Origin: Shimia gijangensis | GTDB lineage: Bacteria; Pseudomonadota; Alphaproteobacteria; Rhodobacterales; Rhodobacteraceae | Direction: 5' to 3' | NCBI RefSeq assembly: GCF_900142085.1 | Contig: NZ_FQZQ01000018.1 | Coordinates: forward strand, 1 to 64,000 | Length of the DNA: 64,000 nucleotides | In this document: positions 4,879-29,015 of the stretch, piece after piece | Position numbering within the stretch: position 1 is the first letter of the stretch | How the letters are laid out: each line of letters starts with the position of its first letter | Program-made: the position numbers and the translations under genes | Notes under the pieces: generated by a model | Told to the model about the DNA's origin: nothing | The model's input: the letters and a program-made list of their open reading frames with translations, nothing else | The model's database searches: none

Positions 4879-4915
4879 GGGAGGGGTGCACATGCGGTTA
4901 GGGACAGTAAAATGA
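4879..4915 (+). promoter_or_regulatory. strong ribosome binding site and 7-codon leader ORF overlapping the RTX start
   Basis: GGGAGGGG (4879-4886) is placed 5 nt before ATG 4892, which opens the peptide MRLGTVK. Its stop TGA (4913-4915) overlaps the ATG of the RTX gene (4912) as ATGA. The RTX ATG itself is 25 nt from this site and has only a weak GGGAC upstream. Translation of the large protein may therefore depend on re-initiation after the leader. This is inference from spacing. Confidence 0.45.
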
Positions 4916-7900
4916 GTGCTTCAAGAAACAAAAACGCCAAGCGTGCACCACATGATCTGACGGGAACTGACGGAAGAGACGTTATCCTGGGACGAAAGGG
5001 CGATGATCTGATTGATGGTGGCGGGGGCAACGATCACCTTTGGGGTGGCAAGGGCCACGACACACTTATCGGAGGCGCCGGACGCGACCATCTAAACGGT
5101 GGCAAAGGCGACGACGTTCTTGTGTACAATGTCTCAGATAACAACAATTCGGTTGACCGCTATCGAGGTGGCAGAGGCAATGACACATTGCGGATTGTCA
5201 TCGACCAGTCCGACAACAACGCGACGCTGCAGATGCAAATTCAGGCGATAGAGGCCTGGATAAGCTCAGGTGGCAAGGGCCATATGTCCTTTGCGCTTGG
5301 AACCTCAACTCTTCATTTGCATTCAATTGAGAACTTCGAACTGATTGTCGAAGGTGGCAACGACGACGAAATCGTCATTGAAGACAGCAACACCGGTTCC
5401 CCGGTTGACGTTGATATGACCTCTGACCCTGAAACTGCAGACAATGATCGTGTGGTCACGGTGACAGGTACCGATGACGTTAACGCAACGACTGGCGGTG
5501 GCAATGACGTGGTGACCACATCGTCCGGCGACGACGTGATCGACGCTGGCGAAGGCGCAAACCAGATTGACGCAGGGGATGGCAACAACGTTGTCACAAC
5601 CGCGTCCGGCGCGGACACAATTTCCGCCGGTATTGGCAACGACACCATTGACGCTGGGGCTGGCGACGATTCCATAATATCAGGAGATGGTGATGACATT
5701 GTCGACGCGGGCGATGGAGACGACATCATCGTTGGCGGATCAGGCGCTGGAAATGACTATTTCGATGGAGGCGCTGGCGATGACACGGTGACATACCCGT
5801 CAGTATCCGCAGCCAGCAATCTGACCATTGACCTGCGCGAGGTCAATCGCGATGGTCAGATACTGGACTCCGGGGCCGGCGGGACGACCCTTGATGTGGG
5901 CGCATTCCTAACCGGCATTGGCCATGATGCAGACGAACATGTCGGCTATGCCTACGACAGCAATGACGAAATGTCTTATGACATTCTGGTCAACATCGAA
6001 AACGTTGTTGGTGGGGCGGGAAATGACCTGATCTACGGGAATTTCCTAAATAATCAGCTGTTTGGCGGCGCAGGGAACGATGTCATTTATGGCATTGGCG
6101 GAGAGAACTACATTGACGGCGGCGACGGAGATGACACGATCATCCTGAGCTATAGTAGCAACGTCATGAACGGTGGCGCGGGCGCTGACACCTTCACCAT
6201 GCTGGATAGTATTTTCCAAAACCGTATCCTGGATTTCCAAGTTGGTGCGGGCGGAGACGTTCTGGACCTGTCACGTACTGGTGCAACATCGCGTGCCTAT
6301 GTCGAAAACCTTGCCGCCTATGAGACAGACGTAAACAGCGACGGAACCATTGACCTTGTTCTTCAATATACAAATTGGGGCAGCGCCCAGGATCTGATCC
6401 TGGATGGGCTCACGATGGCAGACTGGAATGCGATGAACCTGAATGGACAGGTTACCTATTCCGCGCCCAGCGTCAGCTATTTCGGGACCAGCGCCGACGA
6501 CAGCGTAGCGCTTGCCGCGCTTGGCTCGGGTGGGGATACGATTTACGCTTACGAGGGGGATGAAACGGTTCGTGTTTTCGGCAACGACTATGTGTTTCAG
6601 GGATCAGGTAACGACACGCTCGATTACAGTGATGTCTCGGGATACACTGGCCTGTACTACAACCAACGCTATGACAGTGCCGGCAATTTTGTGTTCGATG
6701 GCGGCATCACGGTGGATATTCACGTCACGGATTTCAGCGGCACCCAAAATAACTCGATCGACGGAACCGTCATCAAGGGCAATTTGGGCCAATACGGCAC
6801 GGACACTCTGGTAGACATTGATGTTGCAACCAGCTCAACAAGTGACGGGCTGGCGATTTACGGAACCGACTTTGCGGATTCCTACACCATTGAACTTGCC
6901 GATGATGCCTGGATCGCGATCTATGGTGGGCTCGGCGATGATACTTATACGTTCCGTGGTGGTTCGGGTGGCCGGGTGTCTTACGAAGGACAGAATCTGG
7001 CAGTCCATTACGGCGACGGCGCTGGCGGGCGCGCGATTTTTGACGGCACGTCGGTTCTTGCCGGGGTTAATGTCTACGACCTGTCAAACAGCCTTCTCAA
7101 GACCGATACGATTGATTACACCAATGCACTGGAAATTGCAGGCGGCAATGGGAATGATGTGTTCCTGGGGGCCGACGGGTTCACGGAACGGTTTATCGGC
7201 GGGCGCGGTAACGACTATTTCGATGGTGGTGCGGGCGGGCTTGACCGCGCGCGTTTTGATCGGGGTGGCATCACTTCGATCACTGTTGACCTGACCGATG
7301 CCGGAACGGAAACTGTCTCTTATGATGGTGGCGTCGGATCGGGAGGGACGGATTACAATGTGACCATTCTGGGCGTCGAGTTCATTCGCGGCTCAAACGG
7401 TGACGACAGCATCACCATGTCCGACGTCGACGAGAAAGTCGAAGGTCGCAGCGGCAACGATATGATCGACGGACAGGGTGGACACGATCTGTTGCTGGGC
7501 CAGAACGGTGACGATACAGTTTTGGGTGGTTCCGGCAACGACACCATCTCGGGCGGATCGGAAAATGACGTGCTTTTTGGGGGCATCGGGGACGATTTCA
7601 TCGAAGGCGAGAGCGGCAACGACGATATGTGGGGCGAAGACGGCGCCGACCTCATCCTCGGCGGGTTGGGAGACGACACGCTGTCTGGCGGTCTGGGCAA
7701 CGACACCCTGGAAGGCGGATCCGAGGCTGATACCTTCTTGTTTGCGCCGGGTGACGGCAACGATCTGGTCAATGATTTCTCGTATAGCGATGGCGATCGG
7801 ATCGACGTATCGGCCTACGGATTCACTTCAACGGCGGAATTTGCGTCCATCTCTTTTGACGGAACAAATACTGTTATAGACCTGAACGGAGTCGACACAA

Positions 7901-9159
7901 TCACGCTTGCAAATGCTGACCTGACCGCGTTGATAGACATTGAAAACGCCTTTGTGTTTGATGGTGGCGCGGTCAACGTGATCAACGGCACCTCCGGCGA
8001 TGACGTGCTAAACGGCACCTCGGGGGCCGATTGGATCATCGGATTGTTGGGAACAGACGAACTCAACGGGGGTGCCGGAGACGACATTCTAAACCCCGGT
8101 GACAACTCGTATGACGACATTGTGCGCCCCGGCACCGGGAACAACACAATCATCTACACTGATGCGCTGAACGGGTATCAAACCCTGTCCTACGCGGATT
8201 ATGTTGCGGCCAATGGGATTGTCGCCTCAATCGATGGGATTGGGAACACGGCCACAGTAAGCCGTGGCGCAGACGGTACAGATACCATTGTTGATATTGC
8301 GAACCCTCTGAACGCTGGTTGGGTCGCCGGAGGCTTTGGCTTTGTGACGACAGCGCAGGACGACACGATCACCATTAACAATCAGGCGTCGGGCCAATGG
8401 ATGCAGCTGTCGATGGACGCAGGCAATGATGTCATCAACGTCTTGTCGGGCATCGTGCGCCTCGATTACCGGAACGCGGCCAACGGGATCACCATTGATC
8501 TCGAGAATGGCACCGCCTCAAACGATGGCTGGGGTGACGTGGATACCATCAACGGCAATGTATGGGAGGTGCGCGGCACGAATTTCGCCGACAACATCAC
8601 CGGCAGCAATGCCAACGAGGCTTTCATTGGCGAACAGGGCAACGATACCATTGATGGTGGTGGCGGAACTGACCGGATCAGATTTGACCGGTCCGGTGTC
8701 AGCGATGTCACAGTGGATCTCGCGGCTGAAATCGCGACCGGAACCTGGGGCGGCAACGGCTTTGCTTACACATTGCTCAACATGGAAAATATTCGCGGAT
8801 CCAATTCGGGCATCGATAACATTTCCGGTTCTGCTGCCGCCGAAACACTGGACGGGCGCGGCGGAGATGATGTTCTGAATGGTCGGGCGGGCAATGATAT
8901 GCTCATCGGTGGCTCAGGGGCTGATCGCTTTGTCTTTGCCGCCGGAGATGGCGTGGACACTATCAACGACTTTGATTTCGGGGCCGGCGACCAGATTGAT
9001 TTGGTAGCGTATGGCTATATGTCGAGCACCGATTTCAACAGCTATTCGTTTGACGGTGTAAACACGATCATCAATCTGAATGGGCTGGATGAGGTTGTCT
9101 TGCAGAATGTCGATTTGTTGAGTGTATCTCCCTCAGGCGATGCGTTCATTTTTGTCTAG
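4912..9159 (+). CDS. large RTX (hemolysin-type Ca2+-binding repeat) protein, likely type I secreted
   Basis: This acidic protein of 1415 residues has no N-terminal signal peptide. Blocks of GGxGxDxLxGG nonapeptide repeats occur at roughly residues 15-73, 190-293, 367-437, 823-943, 1023-1067, 1222-1257 and 1302-1340. These bind Ca2+ and fold into beta-rolls outside the cell. Two serralysin-type C-terminal modules are present. One is internal (about 937-1017, [18 protein letters not shown]) and one ends the protein (about 1337-1415, [18 protein letters not shown]), finishing in the hydrophobic tail DAFIFV expected of a type I secretion signal. No peptidase, lipase or other catalytic domain is visible in the segments between repeat blocks. 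No ABC/HlyD secretion genes are nearby. Likely roles are surface layer, adhesion or biofilm matrix, but none is shown. Confidence 0.88.
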
Positions 9160-20639: not shown

Positions 20640-21293
20640 CTACAGCGGTTCGATAAGCTCGGGGCCGCAGGCGCGGTTTGAATTCACTGCCCGATCCACC
20701 TGATGAAACTGCAACAGATCATCAGGCGCCGCCTGCATCAGTTTTGCCGCGCCGTGCCCTTCTTCGCCCAACCAAAGCGGCCAGTCTTCGTGACTGACAA
20801 TGACCGGCATGCGGTGATGTATCGAAGACATGGTCTTGTTCGCCCCGGTTGTAACAATGGCGCAGGTGTCGAACGTCAGGTCTTCAAAACTCCAGTTTTG
20901 CCAGATACCGGCCAAAGCCAGAGGACCCTGACTGTGAATATACCAAGGCCACCGCACACCGTCGTCGTCCTTGGTCCATTCATAAAAGCCCGTCACAGGG
21001 ATCAGGCAACGGCTTTCCCGGCAGGCCGCGCGAAAAGCTGGTTTTTCGGCAATGGTTTCAGCACGCGCATTGATCAGCAATGGCCCGCCTTCCGTGGCCT
21101 TGTACCAATGCGGCAGGAACCCCCAGCGCATCGCCACCAATCTGCGCCCGTTTTCCGAACCGCGCACCACATGCACTTGCGTTGTCGGGCACACGTTGAA
21201 ATTCGGCACATCAGGCAGATCGTTTGCCGGTGCCGCAGAAAACAGCTGCGCCATCGCGTCATGGGGTAAGGTGATTGCAAATCTGCCGCACAT
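20640..21293 (-). CDS. SRAP-domain protein (YedK/HMCES-like abasic-site protein)
   Basis: The protein has 217 residues and begins MCGRFAIT. Cys2 is the catalytic residue of the family, which forms a thiazolidine crosslink with abasic sites in single-stranded DNA. Other conserved parts are MRWGFLPHW, INARAETIAEKPAFR (with the conserved NARxE), CLIPVTGFYEW and the His in HHRMPVI. Its role is protecting abasic sites during replication. The initiator Met must be removed to expose Cys2. There is no clear ribosome binding site. Its start faces the first sulfotransferase gene, with about 60 bp between them. Confidence 0.95.
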   Translation of the reverse strand: MCGRFAITLPHDAMAQLFSAAPANDLPDVPNFNVCPTTQVHVVRGSENGRRLVAMRWGFLPHWYKATEGGPLLINARAETIAEKPAFRAACRESRCLIPVTGFYEWTKDDDGVRWPWYIHSQGPLALAGIWQNWSFEDLTFDTCAIVTTGANKTMSSIHHRMPVIVSHEDWPLWLGEEGHGAAKLMQAAPDDLLQFHQVDRAVNSNRACGPELIEPL

Positions 21294-21355: not shown

Positions 21356-23101
21356 ATGGCAGTCACTCATCAGCAACACGCACAAAAAGTCATGTCTCTG
21401 ATGAATGCAGGACAGTTTGTCCAAGCCGCAAAGGCCGCAAAGGCCGCACTTAAAAAGTTCCCCCGCGAAGGTAACTTTGCCAACGCTGCCGGTATGGCCA
21501 TGGCCCAATCCGGAAACCTGCGCGAAGCCATCAGCTTTTTCTCCAAAGCTCTTAAGATCACACCCGGCGATCCGGGCGTTCAGGATAACCTTATTCAGGC
21601 ACTTGTGATGACCGATCAGCACACCAAGGCCAACGAGCTGATTGACAAGCTTTTGCCCCGCCGTGCCGACCCATCCCAGTTGTACCACCTCAAAGCCTCG
21701 TCTTGCGCCCGTCAGGGAAATCCCGAAGCGGTAATCGAAGCTGCGAGCAAGGCCATTGCGGCCAGTCCCAAAATGTCTCTGTCCTACAACATCAGAGGCA
21801 TCGCCCATACTGACCTGGGGCAAGACGAGCTGGCCTATGCAGATTTCGAAATTGCACATGAACTGACTCCGGCTGATCCGGATCCCCTTGCCAATATGGG
21901 TATTCCGCTGTCCAGATTGGACCGCACAGACGAGGCGATGGTCGCTATTGAAACGGCACTGACACTGCGGCCGGACCATATCAACGCAAACCATCGATAT
22001 GCGGTGCAACTGGCCGAAGTTGGTCGGGTTGAAGATGCGATTGCCCAGTATCACAAGCTGTTAGAGATAGATCCGTTGCACGGCGAAGCCTATTCAGAAC
22101 TGGTGCTGACGCAGTCCAAAGACCGCAATGCAGAATTGGAGCCCAAGCTGCGCACGGCTATCGCCAAATCGCCGAAGAAAGCCCCGGTGCAGATCTATTT
22201 GAACCTTGGTATGGGCAACTTGTTGTATCAACAGGGCAACTTTGAACAGGCAGGCCGTTTCTTGGCGGCGTCCAACGCACTTTCAGCCCAGATGAGACCC
22301 TATGATCGCACTGTCGCCGAGGCAGAGTTTGATCGCATCGTTTCGATGTTCCCTGCCGGTGATCTGGCTCCTGAAACCGGGGATATCGATGCTCCGCAGC
22401 CAATTTTCGTGCTTGGGCAGCCACGGTCAGGCACGACCCTGACCGAGATGATCCTCACGTCGCATCCCGACGTGCAGTCCTGTGGAGAGCTGCCGGGTGT
22501 CGGCAAGATCACATTGCCAATTGTCGAAGGTCAAGAGACGTTCGATGCGGCGACTTTTGCCCGCGAGTATCGTCAGAGATTGCCAAAAATGGACCCGGGC
22601 ACATTGGCCTTTGTCGACAAAATGCCTGCCAATTATCGGTTCATAGGCTTCTTGCTTCATGCTTTTCCCAATGCAGGCATTGTACATATCGCCCGCGATC
22701 CGCGTGATGTGGCGCTTTCGATGTGGCGCAGCCATTTCCCGTCGGGGTGGCTGAATTTCACCTTTGAACTCAAAGCGATGGCGTTTAACGCCAACCTGTA
22801 CCAACGCTATATGCAACATTGGAACACTTTGTACGGCGACCGTATTTTGACGTTGAACTATCGCGACATTGTCTCTGACGTTGAGGCCGCCAGCCACCAG
22901 TTAGCCGAGCAATGTGGCGTTGACTGGATACCCGAGATGGCCTCTCCAGAGCGCAACAAGGCAAAGGTACGCACAGCGTCTGTCGTGCAAGTCCGCCAAG
23001 GAGTTCACAAAAAATCCCTCGGTGGATGGCGCGCAATGGAACCGTCGCTACGACCCTTTATTGATGCGCTCGACCGGGACTTGTGGCCCGACCTGGATTG
23101 A
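21356..23101 (+). CDS. TPR-sulfotransferase fusion protein, copy 1 of 3
   Basis: The product has 581 residues from ATG 21356; the longer frame from 21275 would overlap the SRAP gene and lacks family support. The N-terminal ~330 residues are TPR helices (EAISFFSKALKITPGDPGVQDNL, DELAYADFEIAHELTPADPD and others). The C-terminal ~230 residues are a sulfotransferase: the PAPS 5'-phosphosulfate loop GQPRSGTTLTEM near residue 353 and the 3'-phosphate site HIARDPRDVALSMWR near 445. It ends with VRQGVHKKSLGGWRAMEPSLRPF. It would transfer sulfate from PAPS to an unknown acceptor, with the TPR part probably presenting it. No signal peptide, so cytoplasmic. It is the first of three tandem paralogues with the same domain order. 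Confidence 0.9.
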   Translation: MAVTHQQHAQKVMSLMNAGQFVQAAKAAKAALKKFPREGNFANAAGMAMAQSGNLREAISFFSKALKITPGDPGVQDNLIQALVMTDQHTKANELIDKLLPRRADPSQLYHLKASSCARQGNPEAVIEAASKAIAASPKMSLSYNIRGIAHTDLGQDELAYADFEIAHELTPADPDPLANMGIPLSRLDRTDEAMVAIETALTLRPDHINANHRYAVQLAEVGRVEDAIAQYHKLLEIDPLHGEAYSELVLTQSKDRNAELEPKLRTAIAKSPKKAPVQIYLNLGMGNLLYQQGNFEQAGRFLAASNALSAQMRPYDRTVAEAEFDRIVSMFPAGDLAPETGDIDAPQPIFVLGQPRSGTTLTEMILTSHPDVQSCGELPGVGKITLPIVEGQETFDAATFAREYRQRLPKMDPGTLAFVDKMPANYRFIGFLLHAFPNAGIVHIARDPRDVALSMWRSHFPSGWLNFTFELKAMAFNANLYQRYMQHWNTLYGDRILTLNYRDIVSDVEAASHQLAEQCGVDWIPEMASPERNKAKVRTASVVQVRQGVHKKSLGGWRAMEPSLRPFIDALDRDLWPDLD

Positions 23102-23110
23102 GGGGCAAAA

Positions 23111-24862
23111 ATGCAAAACCCGTTGCAACAAACCGCCGAGAAAATAGCAGCTCAGCTCGACGCCGGGCAGTTTAAGTTCGCAGCCAAGTCGGCGCGAGCG
23201 GCCTTTAAGAAACATCCCAAGTCTGGTGAATTTGCAAATCTGGCAGGCAGCGCATTGTCCAATCTGGGGCAACACCCACTGGCCAGCAGCTATTTTTTGA
23301 AGGCCTTGAAACTGTCACCCGGACATGAAGAGCTTCAAAACAATCTTGTTCAGTCGCTGATCATGGCGGATCAACGTGACAAGGCTCGAGAGTTGATCGA
23401 CCGCTTTCTCACCAACCGCGATGCCCCGGCACATTTGTACTTTCTGCGCGCGTTGTCGCACAATGACCAAGGCGAAGAGCAAGCCGTGATTGAGGCAGCA
23501 TCACAGGCCCTGCAACATGCGCCTGAAATGGTTCCCGCATTGAACATCCGGGGGCTGGCGCTGGCGGAAATTGGTGAAATTGATGAAGGGTTGGCCGATC
23601 TGGAGAAAGCTCAGGCTCTCAATCCGACGGATCCTGATACTTTGACCTATATCAGCCCCCTTCTGGCCAAACGCCTTCGCAACGAAGAGGCTTATCAAGT
23701 CGCCCTGAAGGCAGTGCAGCTTGCGCCTAACCACTTTGGCGCGCGCTACAACCTGGCCAGCCAACTCACTACCATGGGTCGCTTTGAAGAAGCCGCTGAG
23801 CATTTCTACAAGGTGCTCGACCTTAACCCCACACATGGCTTTGCTTTGTTTGAGCTTGCCCAATCTCAGACCCGGGACCAGAACGAGGCCTTTTTACCTC
23901 AACTTCAGGCCGCGCTGGGTAAAACACGACGAAATTCATTTGATTTTGTGCTCGCGAGTTTCGGGCTTGGCAATATCCTGTTGCGACAGGGGGACGAACG
24001 CGGCGCGACAAAACATCTGGCCATGGCCAACAAAGCTGCGGCCAGTCTACGCCCCTATGACCCGGCCCATGCAGAGCGTGAGTTTGAGGCCATTTGTGAA
24101 CATTCCAAAGGTTTGAAACAGACCGGCACATCTGAGGGAAACACCACGCTTCAACCCATTTTTGTGCTGGGACAACCACGGTCAGGCACAACTTTGACCG
24201 AGATGATCCTGACGGCCCATTCGGATGTGATCAGCTGTGGAGAGCTGGAAGCCGGCCCAGACGCAATGGTAGCATTTGAAGACTATTCACGGCCTTTTGA
24301 TGCTGACCTGTTCAAATTACGATATCTGCGTCATCTGCCAGCCGACACAAAAGGCGCCAACCGATTTGTCGATAAAATGCCGGGAAACTATAGGTTCATT
24401 GGTCATTTGCTGACCGCTTTTCCTGAGGCTCGGGTCGTGCACATAGCCCGGGACCCACGCGATGTCGCGTGGTCAATGTGGCGCAATTATTTCTTCGGAA
24501 ACTGGATGAATTTTACATATAATATGAACTGGATGGCCCACCAGGCGAACTTGTATCGCCGCTATATGAACCTATGGGATCAGCGGTATCCGGACCAGAT
24601 CTTGTCTCTGGACTATGCCGATATTGTTGCAGATGTCGAACTCGCCAGCCGCAAATTGGCCGATTTCTGCGGACTAAACTGGACTGAAGCTATGGCCGCG
24701 CCCGAGAAAAACGCGGCTCAGGTGAATACGGCCTCAGTCGTTCAAGTCCGTCAGGGCGTTCACAAGAAATCCGTCGGCGGGTGGCGGGCAATGGAACCAT
24801 CGCTGCGGCCTTTCAATGACGCACTCGACCGGGATTTGTGGCCCGAACTTGATCTCGACTAA
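23111..24862 (+). CDS. TPR-sulfotransferase fusion protein, copy 2 of 3
   Basis: The product has 583 residues and starts 9 bp after the stop of copy 1, so the two are co-transcribed. TPR region from about residue 35 to 320 (LASSYFLKALKLSPGHEELQNNL, EEAAEHFYKVLDLNPTHGFA). Sulfotransferase part with GQPRSGTTLTEM near residue 352 and HIARDPRDVAWSMWR near 445. Here Ala-Trp replaces the Ala-Leu of the sister copies (DVAWSMW against DVALSMW). The closing VRQGVHKKSVGGWRAMEPSLRPFNDALDRDLWPEL is almost identical to that of copy 1, while the TPR half is much more diverged. This pattern suggests a shared sulfuryl-transfer chemistry with different partner recognition (inference). Confidence 0.9.
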   Translation: MQNPLQQTAEKIAAQLDAGQFKFAAKSARAAFKKHPKSGEFANLAGSALSNLGQHPLASSYFLKALKLSPGHEELQNNLVQSLIMADQRDKARELIDRFLTNRDAPAHLYFLRALSHNDQGEEQAVIEAASQALQHAPEMVPALNIRGLALAEIGEIDEGLADLEKAQALNPTDPDTLTYISPLLAKRLRNEEAYQVALKAVQLAPNHFGARYNLASQLTTMGRFEEAAEHFYKVLDLNPTHGFALFELAQSQTRDQNEAFLPQLQAALGKTRRNSFDFVLASFGLGNILLRQGDERGATKHLAMANKAAASLRPYDPAHAEREFEAICEHSKGLKQTGTSEGNTTLQPIFVLGQPRSGTTLTEMILTAHSDVISCGELEAGPDAMVAFEDYSRPFDADLFKLRYLRHLPADTKGANRFVDKMPGNYRFIGHLLTAFPEARVVHIARDPRDVAWSMWRNYFFGNWMNFTYNMNWMAHQANLYRRYMNLWDQRYPDQILSLDYADIVADVELASRKLADFCGLNWTEAMAAPEKNAAQVNTASVVQVRQGVHKKSVGGWRAMEPSLRPFNDALDRDLWPELDLD

Positions 24863-24880
24863 TCAAAAGGTGATTTGACA

Positions 24881-26620
24881 ATGGCAAATCCGGCGCAGAT
24901 TCAGATGCAAAAAATCACCGCCCAGATGCGCGCGGGACAATTCACTGGGGCTGCGAAAACCGCCACCGCCGCATTTAAGAAATTTCCTCGTGAAATCGGT
25001 TTTGCCAATGCTGCAGGGTCGGCACACGCCCAGGCCGGGAATTTCCCGCAAGCCGTTTCGTTTTTCAACAAAGCTCTGGCGCTTGCGCCCGGTGATGCGG
25101 GCACACAAGACAACCTTCTGAGGGTCCTTGTTCAAGCCGGGCGTGCTGAAAAGGCGCTGGAATTAGTTGACCGCCTTTTGAAAAAGCGCGATGAAACCGT
25201 ACCTTTGATGATCCTGAAGGCAAATGCCGAAATGGCACTCGAACGGTTCCATGACGCCATTGCCACCACATCTCAAGCTCTTGAAAGTGAAACTAAAATT
25301 TCCGAGATCTGGGCCCTCAGAGGCGCGGCCCATGATTGTGTAAGAGAGGACGATGCAGCGATTGCGGATTTTCAACAAGCCTTTGATCTTGCGCCATCGG
25401 ACCCAACTCCGCTTGTAAACATGGCCGAGCCTTTGACCCGACGCCATCGCACGGACGATGCACTTGCTGTCTTGCAACAGGCTCTTCAAATTCGCCCGTC
25501 AGATTTGCGAGCCCGAAGGTTTTTGGCAATTCAGCTTGCTCAAGCAGGGCAAGGCGAAGCCGCCAAGGCCGAGTATCATCGCCTGATCGAAGCCGATCCC
25601 TTGGACGCACAAAGTTTTCGAGCCTTGGTTCTTGCGCAAACGGCGGAAGAAAACACAAAGCTCAAACCTGCACTTGAGGCTGCGTTGAAGCAGCTTCCTC
25701 AGAAATCCGAGGGGCAAGCGTCGTTAAACTTTGCCATGGGCAACTTATTGTTCCAGCACAAAGATTATGAAGGCGCGGCTTCCGCTCTGGCCCGGGCAAA
25801 TTCCCTGACTGCCAAAACACGCCCCTTCAACAAAAAAGTGGCAGAGGCAGAATTTGAAACGCTGACCCGAAAACTGACTTCGACAAATGACCGTGACCCT
25901 GAGGTCAAATCAATGCCGCGCCCGATATTCATCATCGGGCAGCCCCGCTCGGGAACCACTTTGTGTGAAATGGTCCTGAGTGCGCATCCTCAGGTGGCAA
26001 GTTGCGGTGAAATGGAAGCGGCATCGCGGGTTTTGGATCCCGCATTAAGCAAGGGGGCTTTTGACCCAGTGACCCTCGCAGCGGCCTTTCAGGACGATCT
26101 GCCAGAAGCGGCACTCAAAGTGCAGGCTTTCGTGGATAAAATGCCTGCCAACTATCGGTATGTTGATGCCTTGCTAAAAACCTTCCCCGACGCAGTATTT
26201 GTGCACCTTACCCGGGACCCGCGCGATGTAGCATTGTCGATGTGGAGAAACTTTTTTCCCAATCCTTGGATGAACTTCACCTTTGATCAGCGTGCTATGG
26301 CCTACCAAGCGAACTTGTACCGACGTTACATGACGCATTGGCAAGACTTGTATCCGGATCGCATTTTAACATTAGATTACAAAGACATCGTGTCTGACAT
26401 CGAAGGGGCAAGCCGCGAGATGGCAAAGTTCTGCGGGTTAGACTGGATCGCCGAAATGGCCGCCCCGGAAAAAAACACCGCAATGGTGCGCACGGCGTCC
26501 GTGACACAAGTACGTCAAGGGGTTCATCAAAAGTCACTGGGTGGTTGGCGCCGCTTTGAAAAGGCTCTGGCCCCATTTTGTGATGCTCTTGATCCAGCGC
26601 TTTGGCCCGATCTCGACTAA
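24881..26620 (+). CDS. TPR-sulfotransferase fusion protein, copy 3 of 3
   Basis: The product has 579 residues. I use ATG 24881, preceded by AAGGTGA, rather than the TTG two codons earlier. It follows copy 2 after 18 bp. The TPR part includes QAVSFFNKALALAPGDAGTQDNL and AIADFQQAFDLAPSDPTPL. The sulfotransferase part has GQPRSGTTLCEM near residue 352 (Cys in place of Thr) and HLTRDPRDVALSMWR. The C-terminal VRQGVHQKSLGGWRRFEKALAPFCDALDP is more diverged than in copies 1 and 2, so this copy probably split first or evolves faster. The stop overlaps that of the convergent DUF1992 gene by 4 bp. Confidence 0.9.
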   Translation: MANPAQIQMQKITAQMRAGQFTGAAKTATAAFKKFPREIGFANAAGSAHAQAGNFPQAVSFFNKALALAPGDAGTQDNLLRVLVQAGRAEKALELVDRLLKKRDETVPLMILKANAEMALERFHDAIATTSQALESETKISEIWALRGAAHDCVREDDAAIADFQQAFDLAPSDPTPLVNMAEPLTRRHRTDDALAVLQQALQIRPSDLRARRFLAIQLAQAGQGEAAKAEYHRLIEADPLDAQSFRALVLAQTAEENTKLKPALEAALKQLPQKSEGQASLNFAMGNLLFQHKDYEGAASALARANSLTAKTRPFNKKVAEAEFETLTRKLTSTNDRDPEVKSMPRPIFIIGQPRSGTTLCEMVLSAHPQVASCGEMEAASRVLDPALSKGAFDPVTLAAAFQDDLPEAALKVQAFVDKMPANYRYVDALLKTFPDAVFVHLTRDPRDVALSMWRNFFPNPWMNFTFDQRAMAYQANLYRRYMTHWQDLYPDRILTLDYKDIVSDIEGASREMAKFCGLDWIAEMAAPEKNTAMVRTASVTQVRQGVHQKSLGGWRRFEKALAPFCDALDPALWPDLD

Positions 26621-26922
26621 CGGAAAGACGTGCGCGCGATCTCAAGGCGGGTTTCCATCATCGACATCTCTTTTAGGATGTCCTGGCGTTGGGTCCGGTC
26701 ACCGGTTTCGCGCAATTCTTCTCTCAGCCGGCTTAGCTCTCGGCTGATTGAAACGTATTCAGGCACACCGCCACTCTCCCGAACAAGCCGGTTCAAAAGC
26801 GCGTCTTGGGGATCATCCTCCTGAGGCAGCGGTTTGCCCGCCCCTTCGAGATTATCAAAGGCGCCGTCTTTCTGGGCTTGCTGGATTTTCTGATCAATCA
26901 GATCGAATAGCGGATGATCCAT
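26617..26922 (-). CDS. DUF1992 (DnaJ-related domain) protein
   Basis: The product has 101 residues from ATG 26922, chosen because GGAG lies 5 nt upstream and homologues begin at MDHPLFDLIDQKIQQAQKDGAFDNLEGAGKPLPQ. The FDNLxGxGKPL motif is diagnostic for DUF1992, a small alpha-helical family sometimes named DnaJ family domain-containing. It has no J domain with HPD, so co-chaperone activity is not shown. It is convergent with the third sulfotransferase, and a terminator for the 5'-nucleotidase gene lies just upstream. Confidence 0.85.
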   Translation of the reverse strand: MDHPLFDLIDQKIQQAQKDGAFDNLEGAGKPLPQEDDPQDALLNRLVRESGGVPEYVSISRELSRLREELRETGDRTQRQDILKEMSMMETRLEIARTSFR

Positions 26923-26986: not shown

Positions 26987-28561
26987 TTACTTCTGGGTGA
27001 TGCGCCCATCTGTATACGACGTGTAGGGCGCATTCTTGGCCATGTACTCGGCCAAAACATCCGCCAGATCAGGGCCGTAGTCATAGGCATTTTCGGCACT
27101 GCGGAACATTTTGTAACCGTCGCCACCGCCCCGCACATAGTTGTTCGACACCAGTGTGTAGGTTTTGGCCGGATCAATCGGTCCCCACGCGCCGCCTTCC
27201 ATCACCATCACATCACTGACTCGTCCTTCGTTTGGTGCAACCTCAGCACTCCAAGAAAACTTTAGGCCCGCGACTTGTGGGAAGCGGCCTTTGACCTCTT
27301 CTACCTGGCTCACGCCGTTTTCCAGCGCGTCTATCACAGTTTGACCCGACACCTGAAAGGTCGACAGCGTGTTTTGGAACGGCAGCACCGTCAGCACTTC
27401 GCCCATAGTCACCTCGCCCGTGTCAATTGAGGCGCGAATGCCACCCGAGTTGGCAATCGCGATGCTCACACCTTGATCCGCTACGCGATCCAGCATGGCG
27501 TCAGCAATCAGATTGCCCATGGCGCATTCCTGTACCCGGCATACTTCACGATCACCGACGATGGGCTCGGCTGCCGAAGCCACAACCTTTTGACGAATTT
27601 CTTCCAGCGGCCCGGCCAGCTCGGCGATACGCGCCTTGGTGTCCCCGTCTTCAGCCACGGCAGCATCCATGATGATAGGCTCACCGACCGCTTCGGTGAT
27701 CTCGCCTGCGTCATTGAAGGTGACATTCAATTCACCCAGAAATTTGCCGTATGCGTAGGCCTGCACAATTGCCGTGCTGCCCACCATGGTCGGATATGGC
27801 CCTTTGGCGCGGTCTGACGTGTTGGACAGATAGGTGTTATCATGTCCGCCCACGATCACATCCACACCCGTGGTTTTGGCCGCAACATGCTGATCGACGC
27901 CATACCCCGAGTGGCTGAGCACGATGATCTTGTTCACGCCCATTTCGGTCAATTTGTCGACTTCGCCCTGCACCGCGGCCACCGGATCAGAAAAGGTCAC
28001 ATTGGGACCCGGGCTGGCCAGCTCATCCGTGTCCTGAGGTGTCAGGCCAATCAGGCCGATCTTTTCACCACCTCTTTCGATGACCACCGATTTCTGCAGT
28101 TTGCCAGCGAGCATTTCTTCGGCACTGACATCCGCGTTGGACATCACAACCGGAAAGTTCACCGCATCCATAAAGCCACGCAGCACTTCCGGGCCATCGT
28201 CAAACTCGTGGTTGCCGACGGTCATGCCGTCATACCCCATTTTGTTCATCATCTCGGCGGCAGCTTTGCCCTTATAATAGGTGTAAAATAGCGTGCCCTG
28301 AAACTGGTCACCACCATCCACGAGAATCGCATTGTTAGAACGCGCACGCGCTTCGGCGACTGCTGTCATCAATCGGGCCGAACCACCAAAGCATTTGCCT
28401 TCGACGTTTTTGTCCTCCGAACACCCTGAATCATATTTGCTAATCGGTTCAAATCGTGAGTGAAAATCGTTGGTGTGCAATATGGTCAGCGAATAATCTG
28501 CCATTGCTGCACCAGTACTAAAAGCGATGGCGGCCACACTTGTCATGACACGAGAAAACAT
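26987..28561 (-). CDS. periplasmic 5'-nucleotidase / UDP-sugar hydrolase family protein
   Basis: The product has 524 residues from ATG 28561 (GGGGAG 5 nt upstream); the frame further upstream overlaps the divergent gene region and is not family sequence. A signal peptide of 21 residues ends GAAMA. The N-terminal calcineurin-like metallophosphatase domain has LHTNDFHSRFEP (metal ligands Asp32, His34) and TVGNHEFDDG. The C-terminal substrate domain has AIANSGGIRASIDTGEV and VSNNYVRGGGDGYKMF. It dephosphorylates extracellular nucleotides, so nucleosides can enter the cell; the salvage operon at 48803-53327 could use them. It has its own terminator. Exact preference (5'-nucleotide or UDP-sugar) not readable. 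Confidence 0.9.
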   Translation of the reverse strand: MFSRVMTSVAAIAFSTGAAMADYSLTILHTNDFHSRFEPISKYDSGCSEDKNVEGKCFGGSARLMTAVAEARARSNNAILVDGGDQFQGTLFYTYYKGKAAAEMMNKMGYDGMTVGNHEFDDGPEVLRGFMDAVNFPVVMSNADVSAEEMLAGKLQKSVVIERGGEKIGLIGLTPQDTDELASPGPNVTFSDPVAAVQGEVDKLTEMGVNKIIVLSHSGYGVDQHVAAKTTGVDVIVGGHDNTYLSNTSDRAKGPYPTMVGSTAIVQAYAYGKFLGELNVTFNDAGEITEAVGEPIIMDAAVAEDGDTKARIAELAGPLEEIRQKVVASAAEPIVGDREVCRVQECAMGNLIADAMLDRVADQGVSIAIANSGGIRASIDTGEVTMGEVLTVLPFQNTLSTFQVSGQTVIDALENGVSQVEEVKGRFPQVAGLKFSWSAEVAPNEGRVSDVMVMEGGAWGPIDPAKTYTLVSNNYVRGGGDGYKMFRSAENAYDYGPDLADVLAEYMAKNAPYTSYTDGRITQK

Positions 28562-28673
28562 CGGCACTCCCCTTCCGTTGGACAATTTAAAGGGCAATGG
28601 TGACTCCGTTTTGACCTTTGAGTCAAAACTTCTCTCGCTTGACCTTGCGGCCGAAGCGTTGCACATGGGTTTT

Positions 28674-29015
28674 ATGCTGATTTTCAAGATTTTCCGGTCC
28701 ACAGAATGGGCTGAGTTGCGCGCAAACGGCGAGACCGCCGGGGCGCCTATCGATGTCACCGATGGCTATGTGCATTTTTCAACTGCTGAGCAGGCCGCCG
28801 AAACTGCTGCCAAGCATTTTGCGGGTGAAAAGGGTTTGTTTCTTCTTGGTGTTGAGACTGACGCTTTGGGGGACGATCTGGTTTGGGAACCATCGCGCGG
28901 AGGGGCATTGTTCCCTCATCTTTACCGGGTTTTCAAAATCGAAGATGTGGCCTGGGCGCAGCCCTTGCCGCTGCAAGACGGGGTGCATCAATTCCCGGCA
29001 GGACTTGGCTTATGA
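28674..29015 (+). CDS. DUF952 family protein
   Basis: The product has 113 residues starting [20 protein letters not shown]; an alternative ATG three codons upstream (28665) is possible. Conserved features are the early I-[FY]-[22 protein letters not shown], and the closing [22 protein letters not shown], all typical of DUF952. The family has a fold related to ADP-ribosyltransferase/RNA 2'-phosphotransferase-like proteins and no established function. Its stop overlaps the pyrD ATG (ATGA), so it is translationally coupled to pyrD, an arrangement I recall as common in alphaproteobacteria. Confidence 0.85.

Follow-up and report, generated by a model that had tools for sequence, protein, structure and literature searches.

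At positions 21,356–26,620 of the window, the 64,000-nucleotide stretch of Shimia gijangensis DNA analysed here (contig NZ_FQZQ01000018.1), is a tandem array of three genes, each encoding tetratricopeptide repeats (TPRs) followed by a sulfotransferase (ST) domain. As comparison with related proteins indicates, the triplet is old rather than the product of a recent triplication, its members belonging to three paralogue lineages of an array that varies in copy number at a fixed site. That variable array is what is new, the enzyme family itself being already named in annotation. Sulfate transfer dependent on 3′-phosphoadenosine 5′-phosphosulfate (PAPS) is very likely for all three proteins, as predicted from motifs and fold; that they work in the cytoplasm, guided by their TPRs, on a protein client that is probably exported is the explanation we favour, and one that we hold tentatively.

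The coordinates, strand, protein lengths and intergenic gaps given in an earlier note on this DNA agree with the sequence (Table 1), as does the domain order, which Pfam finds to be identical in the three proteins. Several TPR families score above cut-off in each (about nine repeats per protein, approximately residues 10–310), and the Sulfotransfer_3 domain (PF13469, cut-off 27 bits) follows from residue 348 or 349. Full-length identity to gene 1 is 49% for gene 2 and 51% for gene 3, and between copies the TPR part is less conserved than the ST part (36–43% versus 57–64% identity), again as had been claimed. Invariant among the three are the motifs PRSGTT, CGE, DKMP and RDPRD, and common to all is the C-terminal block QVRQGVH[KQ]KS[LV]GGWR, so the PAPS sites and the block that the note had singled out are intact in every copy. 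The 5′-phosphosulfate-binding and 3′-phosphate-binding stretches, which we take to be PRSGTT and RDPRD, the latter with the invariant S455, are in place, and G354, R357, G359, R447 and S455 do not vary among 27 aligned proteins, the window's included. Ahead of gene 2 is GAGGGG, a putative ribosome-binding site consistent with one operon, and AAAGGTGAT, judged by eye, would be that of gene 3.

The AlphaFold model of gene 1 (five sequences; mean predicted local distance difference test score (pLDDT) 88.5, predicted template modelling score (pTM) 0.82) begins with a TPR helix and has 18 helices over residues 5–313, with one more reaching residue 331. Foldseek places SPINDLY (SPY) and OGT first for the full-length model. 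For the ST domain modelled alone (pLDDT 83.9, pTM 0.85), ranks 1–11 are all tyrosylprotein sulfotransferases (TPSTs; best E 6.9e-8, TMq 0.61–0.69, 17–22% identity), followed by the ST domain of an olefin synthase at rank 12, two further TPST chains (ranks 13 and 14) and, at rank 15, the curacin ST domain. The TPSTs are eukaryotic Golgi enzymes not known to have this TPR part. A five-sequence ST profile searched against PDB sequences likewise has TPST1, TPST2 and a tick TPST as its top seven matches (E 2.4e-15 to 1.2e-12), with the olefin synthase domain next (E 6.1e-12). To our knowledge few bacterial sulfotransferases acting on proteins or glycans are represented in the PDB, so this ranking partly reflects which structures have been solved.

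In TPST2 the catalytic residues are R78, E99, K158 and S285, according to an excerpt of PMC5562738. Profile alignment sets E378 of the triplet family on the second Glu of the TPST GEE motif and K422 on the Lys of NKDP, and the spacing from Arg to Glu is 21 in the triplet family and TPST2 alike. Together with the invariance of R357, E378 and K422 in the 27 proteins, this puts the catalytic Arg, Glu and Lys of the TPSTs in place; S542, a candidate for the catalytic Ser, and T540 are invariant as well, but the profile alignment ends near the position of TPST2 S285.

Three paralogue lineages are resolved by a full-length tree of 27 proteins, in which genomes of relatives carry handles such as G009 and the window's own genome is G000. 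Type 1 unites gene 1 with G009_a, G005_a, G020_a and G022_a (support 99/97), type 2 unites gene 2 with G005_b, G001, G020_b and G022_b (94/96), and type 3 unites gene 3 with G009_b (100/100). The same lineages appear in a TPR-only tree of 19 proteins (95/95, 96/100 and 95/95; gene 2 group 95/95). The ST-only tree is weaker, with 36/47 for type 1 and gene 2 outside the other type 2 rows, but holding gene 2 with type 2 there is not rejected (p-AU 0.171). Domain swapping between copies was considered and set aside, the TPR and ST trees agreeing on the three types, weak though the latter is. Triplication, the origin proposed in the earlier note, is therefore replaced by a set of lineages with counterparts in related genomes, of which the own genome displays one state.

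Same-type pairs (21) average 47.4% identity in the TPR part and 63.2% in the ST part, and within-genome paralogue pairs (7) 35.4% and 58.5%. Within an ST identity band of 55–66%, 16 same-type pairs have a TPR mean of 44.2% (range 30.7–54.1; ST mean 60.8%) and 28 pairs of different types a TPR mean of 34.1% (range 27.3–42.7; ST mean 58.4%), the pairs not being independent of one another. The lower TPR identity between types at matched ST identity is consistent with the divergence of acceptor recognition suggested earlier; it is indirect evidence, given the dependent pairs and the atypical gene 2, whose TPR identity to its own type (31–34%) is no better than that between types. The ratio of nonsynonymous to synonymous substitution rates (dN/dS) in three closer counterpart pairs of relatives is 0.17, 0.21 and 0.28 for the TPR part and 0.10, 0.15 and 0.18 for the ST part, and is higher for the TPR part in each pair. 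By this measure of coding change, purifying selection acts in those three pairs, more strongly on the ST part; in two pairs that include G000, synonymous change is saturated.

Located between the genes for SRAP and for a DUF1992 protein followed by a UshA-like 5′-nucleotidase, the site holds three copies in one of 25 genus genomes (the own genome, included in the sample), two in four (G005, G009, G020 and G022), one in six (G001, G002, G004, G008, G014 and G017) and none in 14. Because in 12 of the 14 copy-free genomes DUF1992 and SRAP share a strand and are no more than about 50 bp apart (by tblastn), the ST array can be seen to sit, in opposite orientation, between otherwise close neighbours; of the other two, neither G010 nor G006 gives a DUF1992 match, and UshA too is missing from G006. 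When presence and absence are mapped onto a tree built from four flanking proteins in 26 genomes (G029 being just 35% filled), at least four changes are needed, three of them forced by well-supported branches. Copy-free G006 groups there with two-copy G022 and G020, which makes at least one loss of the ST genes likely. The single ST genes at the site in G017 (locus L051) and G008 (L052) are only about 33% identical to gene 1 and have lost the GGWR block, while the flanking proteins of these genomes are 73–79% identical; fast evolution or replacement may account for them.

Across 295 genomes of the family, gene 1 has matches at E ≤ 1e-60 in 35, and three matches occur only in the own genome, at most four candidates having been scored per genome, so that higher counts would not show. 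Outside the genus, 22 of 33 matched genomes were inspected, mostly the best-scoring, with the second matches of G100, G302 and G319 left out. UshA adjoins the ST gene in 16 of the 22 loci, and SRAP lies on the other side in 11 of those 16; since these genes flank the ST gene in so many relatives, the location is probably old within the family, the ST gene having been lost or gained repeatedly. In G260 the site is the same, an additional partial ST match spans about 203 residues, and UshA is 3.5 kb away; the ST gene lies elsewhere in G308, G293, G100 and G027, and the contig of G167 is too short to tell. Tandem TPR-sulfotransferase genes, two of them and overlapping, also occur in G038. UshA as a partner that recycles 3′-phosphoadenosine 5′-phosphate was discarded as an idea: 13 of the 14 copy-free genus genomes keep it near SRAP without an ST gene, so its adjacency is plain synteny.

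Surface proteins come into view in the neighbourhoods of distant homologues. Matches occur in 73 plasmid records; of the 30 listed, 21 were inspected, 20 of these being annotated. The next listed gene encodes a surface or secreted protein in nine of these 20, and such a gene lies within two genes in 12. The next gene is an autotransporter in Thalassospira, a porin in Cereibacter, a calcium-binding protein clustered with type I secretion genes in Sulfitobacter, a flagellin in Paroceanicella, a TonB receptor in four loci (Pseudoalteromonas sp. HL-AS2 and CuT4-3, P. xiamenensis and Novosphingobium pentaromativorans) and, in Comamonas, a cadherin-domain adhesin, type I secretion genes lying on the opposite side. 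Within two genes are autotransporters in Kluyvera, on both sides and with a glycosyltransferase family 8 (GT8) gene next to the ST gene, an autotransporter in Lelliottia, in the order ST–GT8–autotransporter, and a TonB receptor in N. capsulatum. Nearer relatives add a porin adjoining the ST gene in G308 (46–48% identical), where a leucyl-tRNA synthetase gene is nearby as in Cereibacter, and an outer-membrane barrel adjoining it in G038. By comparison, among 159 coding sequences in four 45-kb stretches taken from these plasmid records, a single one encodes a surface or secreted protein (an OprD porin). We treat the pattern as an indication, not a test.

We propose that the triplet encodes three cytoplasmic enzymes, probably from one operon, in which the N-terminal TPR superhelix would pick and hold the acceptor, in the manner of OGT and SPY, before the C-terminal domain would transfer sulfate from PAPS by a mechanism like that of the TPSTs, perhaps to tyrosine. 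The acceptors would most likely be surface or secreted proteins modified ahead of export, each paralogue perhaps serving a different one. Of the acceptors that the earlier note had left side by side, a protein is preferred because of the fold and the distant gene neighbourhoods, a polysaccharide or small molecule being less well supported. Counting in favour too is a match to adenosine 5′-phosphosulfate (APS) kinase in the genome, as in 25 of 25 genus genomes; it lies on another contig (C29), and the statement that the triplet is not next to sulfate activation genes is right for the neighbours scanned. A bolder version would make these proteins a bacterial OGT counterpart for sulfate, TPR-guided protein-tyrosine sulfotransferases of the cytoplasm with one surface client each, their number at the fixed site varying with the clients displayed; as a whole we regard it as improbable.

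Closest among known proteins are those annotated 'Tetratricopeptide repeat-containing sulfotransferase family protein' on plasmids of Thalassospira marina and Cereibacter azotoformans, which have the same TPR and ST parts and are 28.5% and 25.5% identical to gene 2 over 92% of its length. Unlike the window, such records have a match at one or two places among the 30 listed, and none of the 20 annotated loci opened holds a tandem triplet. With OGT and SPY, transferases of O-GlcNAc and O-fucose to protein, the triplet has in common a TPR superhelix fused to a transferase domain; in OGT and SPY that domain is a glycosyltransferase, whereas the triplet shows no such domain among the 25 Pfam matches listed per protein, of 30, 29 and 25. 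RaxST of Xanthomonas, a bacterial tyrosylprotein sulfotransferase modelled on TPST2 that acts on its peptide before secretion, sits, unlike the triplet, in a raxX–raxSTAB cluster with its own substrate gene; it is likened here by description, from an excerpt of PMC6637879. Among open-licence papers in PMC, we found none on TPR-sulfotransferases and none describing the function of the family; PMC11870540, in the part consulted, only excludes sulfotransferases from a TPR screen.

Several findings weigh against a protein acceptor. Around the triplet, the genes scanned are of housekeeping type and no acceptor gene adjoins it, and the conserved neighbourhood exists in genomes without any ST gene, so no acceptor is indicated at this site; 16 of the 22 inspected non-genus loci, and the window itself, are at that housekeeping site. 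On the plasmids, no surface gene lies within two genes in eight of the 20 annotated loci (Komagataeibacter, Sphingobium, Novosphingobium EMRT-2, Methylovirgula, Thalassococcus, Hirschia, Sphingomonas and Roseibium), gene tables are incomplete, and three loci are from Pseudoalteromonas and three from Novosphingobium. The category of surface or secreted protein was set once the first loci had been seen, and the 45-kb comparison stretches were not chosen randomly. In structure, the root-mean-square deviation in Foldseek ranks 1–11 is 3.5–10 Å, heparan sulfate 3-O-sulfotransferases match too, and by eye the triplet proteins have neither the membrane anchor of TPSTs nor an N-terminal hydrophobic segment, for which reason we liken their mechanism to that of a TPST without classing them as TPSTs. 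The ST part of gene 2 alone retrieves the olefin synthase domain (1e-5) ahead of tick TPST (3.5e-5) and retinol dehydratase (4e-5), and with the full gene 2 protein that domain is the only sulfotransferase among 60 matches listed.

If a cell-surface or protein-bound glycan were sulfated, the TPRs would bind a partner enzyme or carrier protein, and in Kluyvera, Lelliottia and Komagataeibacter the ST gene does have a glycosyltransferase gene beside it; a weak NCBIfam match to NoeE (E 4e-6 to 7e-5, 22–26 bits against a cut-off of 500) and the inclusion of the glycan enzyme NodH in Sulfotransfer_3, per an excerpt of PMC11625862, point the same way. With no polysaccharide gene among the 20 window genes scanned with Pfam besides the triplet, and with TPSTs outranking glycan sulfotransferases in both fold and profile searches, we consider a glycan possible but rather unlikely. 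A small molecule or lipid would suit the olefin synthase and curacin domains just below the TPSTs in the rankings, the former first for gene 2 alone, and the further copy on contig C60 that lies among a cupin–helix-turn-helix (HTH) regulator and an AMP-ligase; no biosynthetic gene is among the ten flanking genes scanned, however, and in the enzymes known to us long TPR arrays bind proteins, which leaves this option unlikely. That the proteins are catalytically dead TPR scaffolds is very improbable given catalytic-type residues invariant in all 27 proteins and purifying selection that is stronger on the ST part. Recent local triplication or an assembly artefact could appeal to the C-terminal 47 residues (codons ending at 23098 in gene 1 and at 24859 in gene 2), in which the two genes are 87% identical, while gene 1 and its counterpart in G009 reach 70%. 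This may be a short gene conversion tract; the counterparts in other genomes make a recent event scarcely credible, and the assembly repeat envisaged in the earlier note does not apply to copies 49% and 51% identical to gene 1.

Beyond the triplet, no sulfate-activation, polysaccharide or biosynthetic gene is found among the ten flanking genes scanned with Pfam: to the left are SRAP, a cupin protein, a GAPDH-family protein, a CitMHS/Na-sulfate-symporter-like permease, YebC and a LysR regulator, and to the right DUF1992, the UshA-like 5′-nucleotidase, DUF952 and dihydroorotate dehydrogenase.

Table 1 Features of the triplet and its borders in the window.
Feature	Position	Strand	Basis
SRAP gene, left border of the variable site	20640..21293	-	PF02586, E 5.2e-65; in 25/25 genus genomes
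Gene 1, TPR-sulfotransferase, 581 aa, type 1 lineage	21356..23101	+	Open reading frame and translation, Pfam, tree, AlphaFold
Gene 1 Sulfotransfer_3 domain, residues 349-525	22400..22930	+	PF13469, E 2.9e-35, 122.9 bits
9-bp gap, genes 1 and 2; GAGGGG before gene 2 ATG overlaps gene 1 stop	23102..23110	+	Sequence, by eye
Gene 2, TPR-sulfotransferase, 583 aa, groups with type 2	23111..24862	+	Open reading frame and translation, Pfam, trees
Gene 2 Sulfotransfer_3 domain, residues 349-526	24155..24688	+	PF13469, E 4.5e-37, 128.8 bits
18-bp gap, genes 2 and 3, with AAAGGTGAT before gene 3 ATG	24863..24880	+	Sequence, by eye
Gene 3, TPR-sulfotransferase, 579 aa, type 3 lineage, counterpart in G009	24881..26620	+	Open reading frame and translation, Pfam, tree
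Gene 3 Sulfotransfer_3 domain, residues 348-522	25922..26446	+	PF13469, E 4.5e-39, 135.4 bits
DUF1992/DJC28-domain gene, right border, convergent with gene 3	26617..26922	-	PF09350, sequence, tblastn; start codon by eye
UshA-like 5′-nucleotidase, longest open reading frame, right neighbour	26987..28759	-	PF02872, PF00149; 22/25 genus genomes at E ≤ 1e-60

Very few cases of bacterial protein sulfation, one being RaxST, are known to us. Should surface proteins be what TPR-sulfotransferases modify, this annotated family would become testable, pairs of a TonB receptor and an adjacent ST gene being ready enzyme–client candidates, and the variable array offers natural states of zero, one, two and three copies within one genus for comparison. 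What the analysis adds is that the array is old and variable, that an OGT-like TPR part precedes a TPST-like domain, and that some distant homologues have surface-protein genes nearby.

Two candidate acceptors were considered for the own genome and dropped. Lying 12 kb upstream of the triplet is a gene for an RTX calcium-binding repeat protein of 1415 residues (positions 4912-9159, + strand; PF00353, 216 bits); as a general acceptor it fails, only four of 25 genus genomes, own included, matching it at E ≤ 1e-40, and the matches in G001, G009 and G015 being partial (confined to residues 954-1402). Flagellin, an idea taken from the Paroceanicella locus, has no match in G000. Flagellin matches are absent from four of the 25 genus genomes (G000, G005, G022 and G013), three of which are among the five with at least two ST copies at the site, a post hoc observation on small numbers.

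A search of the own genome returned, besides the three copies, a match on contig C71 restricted to query residues 146-241 in the TPR part, and a fourth TPR-sulfotransferase, about 30% identical, on contig C60 (locus L053, 7914-9731), whose neighbourhood comprises the cupin-HTH regulator, the AMP-ligase, a DsbA-like protein, DUF1638 and a B12-binding protein. Viral contigs held no relative of gene 1, PHROGs gave one weak TPR match without function, and a contig search for relatives gave six loci, all from metagenome-assembled genomes, four of them matching the TPRs only. Near the ST gene in both G308 (L108) and the Cereibacter plasmid (L128) are leuS and a porin gene, and adjoining it in L128 and in G293 (L110) is a YggS-type gene (PF01168); the three loci possibly represent a second conserved ST location. 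In G100 (L125, 6097-9730) a TPR-sulfotransferase gene is divergent from a sulfatase gene (PF00884), possibly a writer and eraser pair.

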